Below, in pieces: positions 32,327 through 38,164 of a stretch of DNA of 64,000 nucleotides. Under the pieces are notes generated by a model. It worked only from the letters and a program-made list of their open reading frames with translations, did no database searches and had not been told where the DNA came from. The stretch comes from an uncultured Spirochaetaceae bacterium (GTDB lineage Bacteria; Spirochaetota; Spirochaetia; Sphaerochaetales; Sphaerochaetaceae). The stretch covers positions 62,001 to 126,000 of the forward strand of contig CALXKJ010000003.1 in the NCBI GenBank assembly GCA_944388955.1, given 5' to 3'. Every line of letters begins with the position of its first letter. Position 1 is the first letter of the stretch. The translations under genes and the position numbers were made by a program.

Positions 32327-33664
32327 TCAGAATCCCTGATCGCACATCGCATCCGCCACTTTGCAGAAGCCAGCGATGTTTGCGCCTTTTGCGTAATCGA
32401 TGTATCCACCATCCGTCGCCCCATGCTTCACGCATTCAGAATGGATTGATTTCATTATACCTTTCAGCTTCTCATCGACTTCTTCCGCGCTCCAATGATA
32501 ATGCATTGCATTCTGGCTCATCTCCAGACCTGAGACCGCTACTCCTCCCGCGTTGGCTGCTTTGCCAGGAGCGAAGAGAATATGGTTTTTCCTGAATAGC
32601 TCAATAGCTTTATCAGTGCATCCCATATTCGATGTCTCGATGACATATTTCACTCCATTTCCTATCAAGGAGGAAGCATCTTTCTCATCAAGCTCATTCT
32701 GAATAGCGCATGGGAATGCAAGATCAACAGGTACTTCCCAAGGCTTCTTATCGGGGATGAAATCAGCACCAAAACGCTTGGCATATGGTTTTACGACATC
32801 ATTGTTTGCAGCTCTGAGCTGAAGCATGAAAGCCCACTTTTCCGGTGTGTTTATACCATTCTCATCGTAAATATAGCCATCCGGCCCTGATATAGTCACA
32901 ACCTTTGCCCCCAACTGGGAAGCCTTCATCACAGCACCCCATGCAACATTGCCGAAACCGGAGATGGCTATACGCTTTCCCTGCATCGTCTCTCCATTCT
33001 CATGAAGCATGTTCTCCGCAAAATACATCGTTCCGAAGCCTGTTGCCTCAGGCCTTATCCGTGAGCCACCCCAGCCGAAGCCTTTTCCTGTGAGCACTCC
33101 TGTGTTCTCTGTCTTGATTTTCTTGTACTGGCCATAGAGATAACCTATCTCCCTTCCACCGACACCTATGTCACCTGCAGGAACATCCGTATCTGGCCCG
33201 ATGTATTTGTAAAGCTCAGTCATGAATGCTTTGCAGAAACGCATGATTTCCTTATCCGAACGGCCTTTGGGAGAAAAATCAGAGCCACCCTTACCGCCAC
33301 CCATCGGAAGTGTTGTCAGCGCATTCTTGAATGTCTGCTCGAAAGCGAGGAACTTCATCGTGCCTTCTGTTACGGAAGCATGGAAGCGGAGACCTCCTTT
33401 ATAAGGTCCCAGCACGTTGCTGAATTGCACGCGATAACCTCTGTTCACCCTTATATTCCCGTCATCATCCTCCCATTCCACCTTGAATGAAATCACACGA
33501 TCGGGCTCAGTTATGCGCTCCAGTATTCTGTTCTGGATGTATTTGGGGTTGTCGTTGACTGTGTCGATGACAGACTCCACAACCTCCCTGACCGCCTGGA
33601 TAAACTCCGGCTCCGAAGGATTCTTCCTCTCAATACCAGCCATGAAATCATCAAGCCTGTACAT
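32327..33664 (-). CDS. gdhA: glutamate dehydrogenase (hexameric, probably NADP-specific)
   Basis: A 445-residue enzyme interconverting glutamate and 2-oxoglutarate plus ammonium. Signatures: GPYKGGLRFHASV near 92, the catalytic-lysine motif PMGGGKGGSDFSPKG, GDIGVGGREIGYLYGQYK, and the Rossmann segment ISGFGNVAWGAVMKA. Length fits the S50-I hexameric class. Likely used for ammonium assimilation or amino-acid fermentation. AT-rich sequence upstream (33665-33800) probably holds its promoter, not resolved. Confidence 0.95.
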   Translation of the reverse strand: MYRLDDFMAGIERKNPSEPEFIQAVREVVESVIDTVNDNPKYIQNRILERITEPDRVISFKVEWEDDDGNIRVNRGYRVQFSNVLGPYKGGLRFHASVTEGTMKFLAFEQTFKNALTTLPMGGGKGGSDFSPKGRSDKEIMRFCKAFMTELYKYIGPDTDVPAGDIGVGGREIGYLYGQYKKIKTENTGVLTGKGFGWGGSRIRPEATGFGTMYFAENMLHENGETMQGKRIAISGFGNVAWGAVMKASQLGAKVVTISGPDGYIYDENGINTPEKWAFMLQLRAANNDVVKPYAKRFGADFIPDKKPWEVPVDLAFPCAIQNELDEKDASSLIGNGVKYVIETSNMGCTDKAIELFRKNHILFAPGKAANAGGVAVSGLEMSQNAMHYHWSAEEVDEKLKGIMKSIHSECVKHGATDGGYIDYAKGANIAGFCKVADAMCDQGF

Positions 33665-33858: not shown

Positions 33859-34056
33859 ATGAACAGAAGAGATACCATCATATACAGAACCTCTCTGATA
33901 CTCATCGGACTGGAAATACTCATCACATCGCTGTCTATCCTTCTCAATCCTGTCTCTGATGCATTCCTCAGGACAATGGGCGTCCTGATTATCATCACAG
34001 CAATTCCTGCCTTATATGGATTCATCGTCAAATACATAGTTGACCGGAGGAAATGA
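33859..34056 (+). CDS. small two-helix membrane protein
   Basis: A 65-residue protein, MNRRDTIIYR start, two hydrophobic helices (about 9-30 and 34-57) and a basic tail (KYIVDRRK). Not recognised. The reading frame extends 13 codons upstream, but a perfect -10 box lies there, so the ATG at 33859 is preferred and the mRNA would be leaderless. Its stop overlaps the start of the PEP-synthase-like gene (ATGATG), with GGAGG inside the end of this gene serving the next one. Possibly a membrane partner of that protein. Confidence 0.6.
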   Translation: MNRRDTIIYRTSLILIGLEILITSLSILLNPVSDAFLRTMGVLIIITAIPALYGFIVKYIVDRRK

Positions 34057-36980
34057 TGTATCTTCTCGATCCGACCTGGCTGCCATTCGCGAATCTGATG
34101 CTCCGTCATGTCTACAGTGTTATTCTCATATGCTCAGATTATGACAGGTTCATGCTCGACGAAGATGGAAGGGTCGAAGAGGAGTTATACAAGGAATATA
34201 CAGCACTCGGGCTTTCCAACCCACCGAAGATCACTCATGTCTCGAATGAAGCTGATGCACTTGCCCTTATCCGAGAGCGCAATTTCGATCTTGCAATCTC
34301 AATGCTTGATTTAGGCTCAGACAGAGTCGAAGCGCTCAGTAAAGCCATCAAGGAAATAAAACCATCAATGCCTGTGATAGCGCTCTCCCCTTCTCCCGAT
34401 CATCGTAAGGCTAGAGAGCTCAGGGGTGAAAACTGCCCTTACATAGACTATCTCTTCTACTGGCAGGGCAACCCATCGCTTTTCCTGGCGATGGTAAAGC
34501 TTGTTGAAGACAGGATGAATGCGGATCATGACACGAGCGAGGCTGATGTGCAGGTAATCCTTCTTGTAGAGGATTCGGTGAGATTCATATCAGCATTCCT
34601 GCCTGAGATGTACACCTCGCTCATAAGGCAGAACAGGCATTCAATACAGGAAGCACTCAACGAATGGGGCAAGACACTGAGAATGAGAGGACGCCCAAAG
34701 ATTCTTCTCGCGAAGGATTATGATGAGGCGTGGTCTCTCTATGCAAGATACAGCTCGAATATTCTCGGCGTCATAACAGATGTGAACTTTCCGTCCCCCT
34801 CTGGCCGGAAAGATTCAGGACTGAGACTTGCTGAGAACATCAAGAAGGATAATCCCGAGGTCAGGATTCTCATACAGAGCACAGAGATTGAGAACAAATC
34901 TGACGCGGAAAGACTTGGAGCAGCTTTTATCTGGAAGTTTTCTCCATCTATGTATCATGAACTTGAAGAGCATTTCACAGCCGAGTACGGCTTTGGTCCA
35001 TTCATCTTCAGGAATCCTGACAATGGGAAGGAAATCGCCAGGGCAAACACAATGCGCGAGGTGCAGGAGATGATAAGAATCATCCCGATTTCATCCTTCA
35101 GGTACCACTCGAAGCGCAATGACTTTTCCAGATGGCTCAGGGCCCAGTCTCTCTACACGCTTGCAACCAAGATCAAGAATATAAATCTCGATGCCGGAAT
35201 GGATGACGAGGAAGTACGCAATCTTCTATACACGACTATAAAGAACTACAGAGCTGAACGCACAAGAGGTGTCATCGCGGAATTCTCACCATCGGCATAT
35301 GACGAGACAGTCCTATTTGCCCGTATAGGCAAAGGCTCCATGGGAGGAAAAGGAAGAGGACTCGCTTTCATCGCCATGGAGATGAAAGCAAATGGCATGA
35401 TGGAGAAATATCCATCTGTATATCTGTCCATCCCGAAGACCATTGTCATAACGACAGAGCTATTTGACGCGTTCAGGGCGCTCAACCATCTTGAGAATAT
35501 TGATTATGAGTCAATGAGCGATGAGGAGATACTCAGGATTTTCCTCGATTCAGAAATTCCAGAGATTCTCGACAGGGATTTAAGGGCGGTTCTTCAGATA
35601 CTGAAGAAGCCGCTTTCTGTACGCTCGTCGTCACTTCTTGAAGATTCACACTTCCAGCCATTTGCAGGTGTTTACCAGACATCGATGATTTCCAATAAAG
35701 GCGATATGGAGAAAAGGCTATCAGAGCTGAAGATGGCTATAAAGACTGTCTGGGCTTCCACTTATTTCTCGACAGCAAGAGAGTATCTCAAGAGCACGCT
35801 CCACTCCCTCGATGAAGAGAAAATGGCTGTTATCATACAGCAAGTGACAGGCTCTGAGCATGGAAGATACTGGTATCCTAATATCTCTGGTGTCGCAAGA
35901 TCCCTCAACTACTACCCCATCCCGGGGCAGAAAGCTGAGGATGGCGTTGGCATGCTCTCTTTCGGACTTGGCAAGATGATTGTGGACGAGGGTGTGGCTT
36001 TCCGCTTCTGTCCGGCAAAACCGAAGATGCCATCCGATTCGCTTTCCGGCGAGTCCTCGAGCCAGGACAGATTCTATGCTCTCAATCTTGATTCATCATT
36101 CAACCCCCTTGAGAATTCAGACAACCTGGTAACAAGAGACATACAGGAAGAGGCGCGGGAATTCCCAAAGGCCTTCAAGGCTATAGCTTCGGTCCTTGAT
36201 CCGATGACAGGCATGCTCTCTGAATCCATCAGGGCTGAAGGCATACGCATGCTTACATTCAACGGCATACTGAAGTACGACACAATGCCGCTTGCTTCTA
36301 TTGTAGATGACATGCTCAAGCTTGGATCAGAGGCGATGGCAGAGCCTGTGGAGATGGAATTCGCTGTCGACACGGAACACCCCGACCGCCCAGATTTCTC
36401 AATTCTGCAGATGCGCCCGATATCAGGGACAAGTGGATACACATATGTTCCTGTCACAGAAAACGACAAGGAAGAGGCACTCATTTATGCCGAGAAGGTA
36501 ATGGGCAATGGAATCATTCCGGAAATCCGGGACATCATCACGATAAAGCCGGACGCGTTCAGCACAAAGGAAATGCCGGAGATGGCTCTTGAGCTGGAAA
36601 AACTGAACAGAAAAGCAGAAGGAAGCTATGTGCTCATAGCAGCAGGCCGTCTTGGCTCATCCGACAGATGGCTGGGCATCCCTTGCACATGGTCACAGAT
36701 ATCAAAGGCTCATGTTATCGTGGAGACAGGATTGAAAGAGCTGCAGGCAGAGCCTAGTCAGGGAACTCACTTCTTCCAGAACATGACATCGCTTGGCTGT
36801 CTCTACCTTACGGTGAATCCAATGTACAATGATGGGATTTTCCGCTATGACGCTATAAAAGCGCTTCCGAATATTGAAGAAACTAAGCATTTTCTGCACG
36901 TAAGGGCAGATAATGATCTGATTATCAAGGCAAGTGGCCTTGAAAGCAAAGCAGTAATAAGACTTAAGGAGAAAACCTGA
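34053..36980 (+). CDS. PEP synthase/PPDK N-domain protein with two receiver-like domains
   Basis: A 975-residue protein. Residues 1-140 resemble a receiver with D in AISMLDLGSD. Residues about 165-310 form a second with ILLVEDS, phospho-acceptor candidate in GVITDVNFP and lysine in IWKFSP. From about 415 a pyruvate/PEP-dikinase nucleotide-binding domain follows: GKGSMGGKGRGLAF, LSVRSSSLLEDSHFQPFAGVYQ, VIIQQVTGSEHG, FGLGKMIVDEG and LQMRPIS. The phospho-histidine swivel domain (TSH motif) and PEP-binding barrel are absent. So it is probably not a complete synthase but an ATP-dependent phosphotransferase or signalling protein. An ATG at 34056 is better spaced from GGAGG. Adjacent to an alcohol dehydrogenase. 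Confidence 0.75.
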   Translation: MMYLLDPTWLPFANLMLRHVYSVILICSDYDRFMLDEDGRVEEELYKEYTALGLSNPPKITHVSNEADALALIRERNFDLAISMLDLGSDRVEALSKAIKEIKPSMPVIALSPSPDHRKARELRGENCPYIDYLFYWQGNPSLFLAMVKLVEDRMNADHDTSEADVQVILLVEDSVRFISAFLPEMYTSLIRQNRHSIQEALNEWGKTLRMRGRPKILLAKDYDEAWSLYARYSSNILGVITDVNFPSPSGRKDSGLRLAENIKKDNPEVRILIQSTEIENKSDAERLGAAFIWKFSPSMYHELEEHFTAEYGFGPFIFRNPDNGKEIARANTMREVQEMIRIIPISSFRYHSKRNDFSRWLRAQSLYTLATKIKNINLDAGMDDEEVRNLLYTTIKNYRAERTRGVIAEFSPSAYDETVLFARIGKGSMGGKGRGLAFIAMEMKANGMMEKYPSVYLSIPKTIVITTELFDAFRALNHLENIDYESMSDEEILRIFLDSEIPEILDRDLRAVLQILKKPLSVRSSSLLEDSHFQPFAGVYQTSMISNKGDMEKRLSELKMAIKTVWASTYFSTAREYLKSTLHSLDEEKMAVIIQQVTGSEHGRYWYPNISGVARSLNYYPIPGQKAEDGVGMLSFGLGKMIVDEGVAFRFCPAKPKMPSDSLSGESSSQDRFYALNLDSSFNPLENSDNLVTRDIQEEAREFPKAFKAIASVLDPMTGMLSESIRAEGIRMLTFNGILKYDTMPLASIVDDMLKLGSEAMAEPVEMEFAVDTEHPDRPDFSILQMRPISGTSGYTYVPVTENDKEEALIYAEKVMGNGIIPEIRDIITIKPDAFSTKEMPEMALELEKLNRKAEGSYVLIAAGRLGSSDRWLGIPCTWSQISKAHVIVETGLKELQAEPSQGTHFFQNMTSLGCLYLTVNPMYNDGIFRYDAIKALPNIEETKHFLHVRADNDLIIKASGLESKAVIRLKEKT

Positions 36981-38164
36981 TGCTGACATCGCTTTACACA
37001 CCGACCCATGTGCTTCTAGGACAGGGCGCAGAAACAAAAGCAGGAGAAGAACTCAGGAAAGAAGGGGCAAGGAAAGTCCTTATTCATTATGGCTCAGACA
37101 GGATTATAGCTGATGGTCTGATGAAGAGAGTGACAGACCAGCTTGATGAAGAGGGAATCAGCTACATACTTCTTGGAGGTGTCAAGCCGAATCCAAGGCT
37201 CTCGCTCGTAAGAGAAGGAATCGAAATTGCGAGAAAGGAGAATGCAGATTTCATACTTGCCGTCGGCGGCGGCTCTGTTATAGATAGCGCGAAAGCTATC
37301 GCGTATGGGCTTTATGACAAAGACGGAGATGTCTGGGATTTCTATACCGGAAAAAGGAAGCCCGAAGGCTCTTATCCGATAGGTGTCATACTCACGCTTG
37401 CAGCAACAGGCTCAGAGATGAGCGATAGCTCCGTAATAACAAACGAGGATGGAAATCTCAAGAGAGGATGCAACTCCGATTATTGCCGTCCACGCTTCGC
37501 GCTCCTTAATCCCGAGCTTACATATACAGTGCCGCCTTATCAGACATCGTGCGGAACTGCAGATATCATGATGCACACGATGGAGAGGTACTTCCACTCT
37601 GGCGAATCCCTTGAGCTTACGGATAATCTGGCTTTCGCTCTTCTGAAGACTGTCACAGAAAATGGACAGAAGGCCCTTTCAAATCCAAAGGATTATGAAG
37701 CACGGAAGAATCTCATGTGGGCTTCCTCGCTTTCACACAACAATCTTCTGGCTATGGGAAATGATCAGAGAGGCGACTGGGCTTGTCATCAGATTGAGCA
37801 TGAGCTTTCAGGCATGTTCGACGTTGCGCATGGCGCAGGTCTTACCGCAATCTGGGCATCGTGGGCAAGATATGTCTACCACAAAGATCCAGAGCGCTTT
37901 GCTGCGCTTGGAGCTGGTGTCTTCGGTCTGAGACGTACCGCCTCTCCCGAGCGTGACGCGGAAGAGACTATAAAGGCGTTCGAGAATTACTTCAGCTCGA
38001 TACATATGCCTATTTCCCTCAAGGAGCTTGGCATAAATCCAACAGACAAGGAGATTGATGAGCTGGCTGAGAAAGCGACATTCTGGGGCGGAAGAACGCT
38101 AGGAGCGTTCATGATACTCGGAAAAGATGCGATAAAAGCCATATACACAGCTGCAAGGAAATAG
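36980..38164 (+). CDS. iron-containing alcohol dehydrogenase (butanol dehydrogenase-like)
   Basis: A 394-residue NAD(P)-dependent enzyme for aldehyde/alcohol interconversion in fermentation. Nucleotide-binding region VGGGSVIDSAKAIAYG, the family segment TLAATGSEMSDSSVITN, and metal ligands in CGTADIMMHTMERYF and HQIEHELSGMFDVAHGAGL. Size and pattern fit the BdhA/YqhD branch, often NADPH-linked. The ATG overlaps the preceding stop by one base with AAGGAG upstream, so it is co-transcribed with the PEP-synthase-like gene. No terminator is obvious before the antitoxin promoter that follows. Confidence 0.9.
   Translation: MLTSLYTPTHVLLGQGAETKAGEELRKEGARKVLIHYGSDRIIADGLMKRVTDQLDEEGISYILLGGVKPNPRLSLVREGIEIARKENADFILAVGGGSVIDSAKAIAYGLYDKDGDVWDFYTGKRKPEGSYPIGVILTLAATGSEMSDSSVITNEDGNLKRGCNSDYCRPRFALLNPELTYTVPPYQTSCGTADIMMHTMERYFHSGESLELTDNLAFALLKTVTENGQKALSNPKDYEARKNLMWASSLSHNNLLAMGNDQRGDWACHQIEHELSGMFDVAHGAGLTAIWASWARYVYHKDPERFAALGAGVFGLRRTASPERDAEETIKAFENYFSSIHMPISLKELGINPTDKEIDELAEKATFWGGRTLGAFMILGKDAIKAIYTAARK

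Follow-up and report, generated by a model that had tools for sequence, protein, structure and literature searches.

The locus raises the question of what a protein that joins receiver-like domains to the nucleotide-binding domain of PEP synthase, but that lacks the PEP/pyruvate barrel, might do. The protein has 975 residues and is encoded at 34053-36980 on the forward strand of the window, i.e. the whole 64,000-nucleotide stretch of Spirochaetaceae DNA that was analysed. The ORF is real, being kept at full length in 35/35 of the genus relatives examined, and many genomes of the class also have full-length homologues; the label given to a relative in annotated records is 'PEP/pyruvate-binding domain-containing protein'. 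It belongs to a widespread family that has gone unstudied, no paper on it having been found in the open literature; the members are related to PEP synthase and would use ATP under signal control. The family is defined here by a core of PPDK_N followed by a domain with the motif S-x-G-[TS]-H-F-F, and by a gene for glutamate dehydrogenase (GDH) nearby, all of which are features of the window protein and its locus.

Read from the N terminus, the chain comprises a pseudo-receiver, a receiver, a DUF5752-like linker, the PPDK_N ATP-grasp domain and a C-terminal domain that carries a conserved histidine and has a swivelling-like organization; the coordinates given for these parts all refer to the forward strand. 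Residue conservation was assessed in an alignment of 50 sequences, i.e. the window protein and 49 homologues that are 38 to 43% identical to it. The second receiver (REC2, residues ~165-312, 34545-34988), which is apparent from Pfam (Response_reg at 203-283, E 1.3e-7), the AF2 model and the alignment, has conserved phosphorylation residues, with E173, D243, S276 and K295 present in 50/50 sequences and D174 in 49/50. The first (REC1, residues ~20-160, 34110-34532) is discernible from its alternating strands and helices in the AF2 model and from the alignment, but its acceptor position (Met84) is Met in 45/50 sequences and the Lys is missing, and it is therefore a pseudo-receiver. Of the two N-terminal receiver-like domains noted in the first-pass annotation, REC2 stands as a receiver and REC1 is degenerate. 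A helical linker (residues ~313-405, 34989-35267), with a marginal DUF5752 match under the Pfam cut-off, leads to PPDK_N (residues 429-807, 35337-36473, E 1e-39), in which the ATP-grasp residues K433, R524, E767, E769, Q786 and R788 are invariant in all 50 sequences; the nucleotide motifs are thus kept, as had been claimed. It is likewise borne out that the protein has no PEP/pyruvate barrel, in that the Pfam matches are to three families only and the chain ends after the C-terminal domain. The accompanying suggestions, of signal control by the receiver domains and of a role other than PEP synthesis, are supported. A single in-frame TAG occurs in this gene in some genus relatives (near codon 514 in L032; also in G029 and G001), which in L032 divides the ORF into 516 and 460 residues; a pseudogene, an error and recoding are all possible.

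The protein had been taken to lack the phospho-histidine domain of PEP synthase, a claim that is not upheld and is probably wrong. The C-terminal domain (residues 808-975, 36474-36977) has no match in Pfam, PF00391 (PEP-utilizers) included, but contains a highly conserved block, GR-W-GSSD-x-W-LGIP-x-x-W-x-x-I ... VE ... PSQGTHFFQN, with invariant His, Arg, Glu and Ser residues, the core of which is retained in ~25%-identical relatives bearing other N termini. A PDB sequence search with this domain gave no convincing match, hhalign of the domain against the PEP-utilizers profile was not significant (Prob about 1.5), and no significant match to PPDK emerged when the whole core was compared by hhalign. 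The sequence profiles being non-significant, the case for a swivelling domain rests on predicted secondary structure. It was made by comparing the order of elements in two AF2 models, one of the window protein and one of a PPDK encoded on a viral-collection contig (L219). After PPDK_N, the DSSP order in PPDK is H E E E H E H E [His]H E, followed by strands; the window protein repeats this order, with one extra short helix later, and both models have a helix that opens with the conserved His. An alignment of secondary structure that was blind to histidines paired His906 (S-Q-G-T-H-F-F, codon at 36768-36770), the proposed phosphoryl carrier, with PPDK His454, and scored above all 176 decoy windows (Z 4.0 and 3.7). 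Together with its place directly after PPDK_N, which in PPDK is taken by the swivelling domain, these predicted features suggest that residues 808-975 are probably a swivelling-type phospho-His domain with His906 at the position of the catalytic His. A cryptic phospho-histidine domain is therefore probably present at the C terminus, as judged from the AF2-based comparison.

Across the family, PPDK_N and the C-terminal domain are constant and the N-terminal modules differ. The window-type input consists of two receivers, whereas PAS and receiver-like modules precede the core in two members (L053 and L054), a ~290-residue module without a Pfam match does so in three (L047, L164 and L168), and one protein of 564 residues (L045) has almost nothing ahead of it. 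The ~290-residue module begins STGLxxLDxxLxxLxxGDNVVW, a start like that of KaiC/RecA-like domains, with no P-loop in the part read. From its domain composition, the family looks like a single output with interchangeable inputs. No family member was found in viral contigs, and a phage or viral origin was accordingly rejected.

The conserved partner of the family gene is GDH, which the first-pass annotation had overlooked. In the window, a GDH of 445 residues (NF010633) is encoded divergently at 32327-33664 on the reverse strand, 388 bp upstream of the 975-residue ORF. Within the phylum sample, GDH is adjacent (<1 kb) to 27/44 family genes, compared with roughly 0.1% expected by chance, and lies within 8 kb of six more; for the remaining 11 the contig carries no GDH, most of these assemblies being fragmented, a situation in which adjacency is underestimated. 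Where it is adjacent, GDH occurs in four relative arrangements, and loci elsewhere in the phylum and in Bacteroidota have it divergent, convergent, or on the same strand either upstream or downstream. GDH is present in 38/39 genomes with the C-terminal domain versus 85/159 without it (Fisher p 2e-8, uncorrected for phylogeny). The 60 genomes of the Bacteroides-group sample, which share ancestry, each have exactly one family gene, with GDH adjacent in 24/60 and within 6 kb in 44/60; in 20/60 the family gene is flanked by two GDH genes, upstream by a divergent one and downstream by a convergent one. Gap lengths in these neighbourhoods are approximate, because gene ends were estimated from domain positions. 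In Parabacteroides distasonis, the immediate neighbour is a divergent gdhA, and a further NADP-GDH is encoded 3.5 kb downstream. Adjacency of the family gene to GDH is far above chance.

The linked GDHs belong to several clades, one of which shares only about 30% identity with the window GDH, and some Bacteroidales have two tandem family paralogues, each beside its own GDH paralogue. In the tandem loci L053, L072, L077 and L079 the two proteins are of ~1180-1270 and ~995 residues, and each adjoins a different GDH paralogue. A close GDH relative (L206, about 70% identical) is present in some genomes without a family gene, and the genome from which the window derives encodes, on another contig (G000:C14:13142-13525), a further GDH that shares about 54% identity with the one in the window. 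Five GDH columns (D55, N83, P205, M387 and G415, window GDH numbering) are specific to linked genes; they were set aside, being inseparable from phylogeny with unlinked sequences numbering only 14.

We consider there to be about an even chance that the window protein is an input-controlled phospho-His phosphotransferase of PEP-synthase descent that works in the GDH system, where it is best read as modulating GDH or as acting on the substrates of GDH. ATP bound by PPDK_N would phosphorylate His906 on the swivelling-like domain, from which the phosphoryl group would pass to an acceptor, most likely GDH itself, the activity of which would be reversibly changed; the acceptor is placed in the GDH system because there is no PEP/pyruvate barrel. 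The rate may be set by phosphorylation of D243 in REC2 or, in relatives, by the other input modules. Such a protein would resemble PEP synthase and PPDK in having PPDK_N, the catalytic residues of which are invariant, and directly after it a domain with the predicted secondary-structure order of the swivelling domain and a His at the equivalent place. It differs from them in lacking the barrel, in having N-terminal receivers and a GDH-linked gene, and in its His domain, which has no profile similarity to that of PPDK and has the motif S-x-G-T-H-F-F rather than G-G-x-T-S-H. Like the PorX-type orphan response regulators, it pairs a receiver with an effector enzyme and has no DNA-binding output; however, weak PorX-type matches are confined to the first receiver, the effector is PPDK_N with a His-like domain, and there are two receivers, the first of them degenerate. 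A separate protein for signal-dependent control of GDH has a counterpart in GarA/OdhI of Actinobacteria, but these are FHA-domain protein inhibitors of GDH, and no sequence relation between them and the family of the window protein is known.

The phospho-His domain might instead phosphorylate a small molecule from the pathway of GDH, for instance glutamate or 2-oxoglutarate, the latter being, like pyruvate, an alpha-keto acid, with GDH merely supplying or removing that molecule. PPDK_N and a phospho-His carrier serve a non-pyruvate acceptor in rifampicin phosphotransferase, PigC/RedH and glucan water dikinase, and most of the characterised enzymes with this pair use small molecules or sugars. 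The window protein shares PPDK_N and a presumptive carrier with rifampicin phosphotransferase and the PigC/RedH ligases, and has weak NCBIfam matches to these and to PEP synthase, all far below cut-off (<50 bits, where the thresholds of the rifampicin phosphotransferase, PigC and RedH models are set at about 1000 bits or higher). The GDH linkage is compatible with a metabolic enzyme of this type. However, the window protein lacks the further domains of rifampicin phosphotransferase, PigC/RedH and glucan water dikinase, with no additional substrate-binding domain after the His domain, and receivers, PAS and other variable inputs are found more typically in a regulator than in an enzyme of a pathway; such a role is considered unlikely, if worth keeping in mind.

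A sensor that binds ATP but transfers nothing, controlling GDH or another partner by allosteric contact with the receivers as switches, would fit the divergence of the His motif (GTHFF compared with TSHAA) and the undetectable similarity to the PEP-utilizers family by hhalign. Against this, none of the ATP-grasp residues tested varies, nor do the His, Arg, Glu and Ser of the C-terminal domain, as catalysis predicts, and we regard a purely contact-based sensor as quite improbable.

The first-pass annotation had envisaged a PPDK_N kinase that, having no His domain of its own, may phosphorylate a separate histidine protein and is coupled to the neighbouring genes. Both of the neighbours it named do adjoin the ORF: a small hydrophobic membrane protein of 65 residues (33859-34056, forward strand), the stop of which overlaps the large ORF at its start codon (ATGATG) and which was found in about a dozen genus relatives only, and an iron-containing alcohol dehydrogenase (36980-38164, forward strand), the start of which overlaps the stop of the 975-residue ORF. 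The alcohol dehydrogenase is immediately 3' of the gene in nearly all loci of the genus, but the linkage is absent outside it, and the enzyme was therefore rejected as a functional partner. A separate histidine protein is not needed, given that the C-terminal domain resembles the supposedly missing one, and there is no stand-alone PEP-utilizers domain in the genome of the window, where the domain occurs only in a 908-residue PPDK and in a protein of 579 residues, the size of PTS enzyme I. Little credence can thus be given to this scheme. It is similarly hard to credit that family gene and GDH are an old pair co-inherited with no functional interaction since, although gene order within one genus is simply inherited, the proximity holds across several orientations, GDH clades and architectures, and across the phylum of the window, Bacteroidota and one Candidatus Delongbacteria record; a linkage that recurs in this way would be difficult to account for if it had no function.

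If the phosphotransferase reading is correct, it may bear on the control of nitrogen metabolism in gut bacteria, GDH being one of the main routes by which Bacteroides and its relatives assimilate ammonia. A 1996 paper by Baggio and Morrison reportedly, to go by its title, concerned an unnamed trans-acting gene downstream of gdhA that affects GDH activity in B. thetaiotaomicron, and a paper of 1987, not used as evidence here, reportedly described reversible inactivation of B. fragilis GDH in vivo. Some other genomes of the Bacteroides group have the family gene directly downstream of a gdh gene, in convergent orientation, and it is therefore a natural candidate for the trans-acting gene of 1996; it may be the missing GDH switch in gut Bacteroides and their relatives. 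More speculatively, and with rather more doubt than confidence on our part, the family could constitute a new class of nitrogen regulators, i.e. signal-gated phosphotransferases derived from PEP synthase that modify GDH via a swivelling phospho-histidine arm, that are ubiquitous in the Bacteroides group and that explain how Bacteroides GDH is controlled in trans. The present work provides a concrete candidate for that control, occurring once per genome in the 60 Bacteroides-group genomes sampled, with His906 as a candidate residue and GDH as a candidate partner. Were the proposal true, a PPDK-type phosphotransfer module would have been recruited to signalling, with receivers, PAS or nucleotidyltransferase domains mounted on a constant core.

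An NTP_transf_2 nucleotidyltransferase domain lies C-terminal to the core in two members (L045:4410-7571 and L179:2946-6131), an arrangement that, by analogy, would fit with protein nucleotidylation, as in nitrogen regulation of the GlnD/GlnE type.
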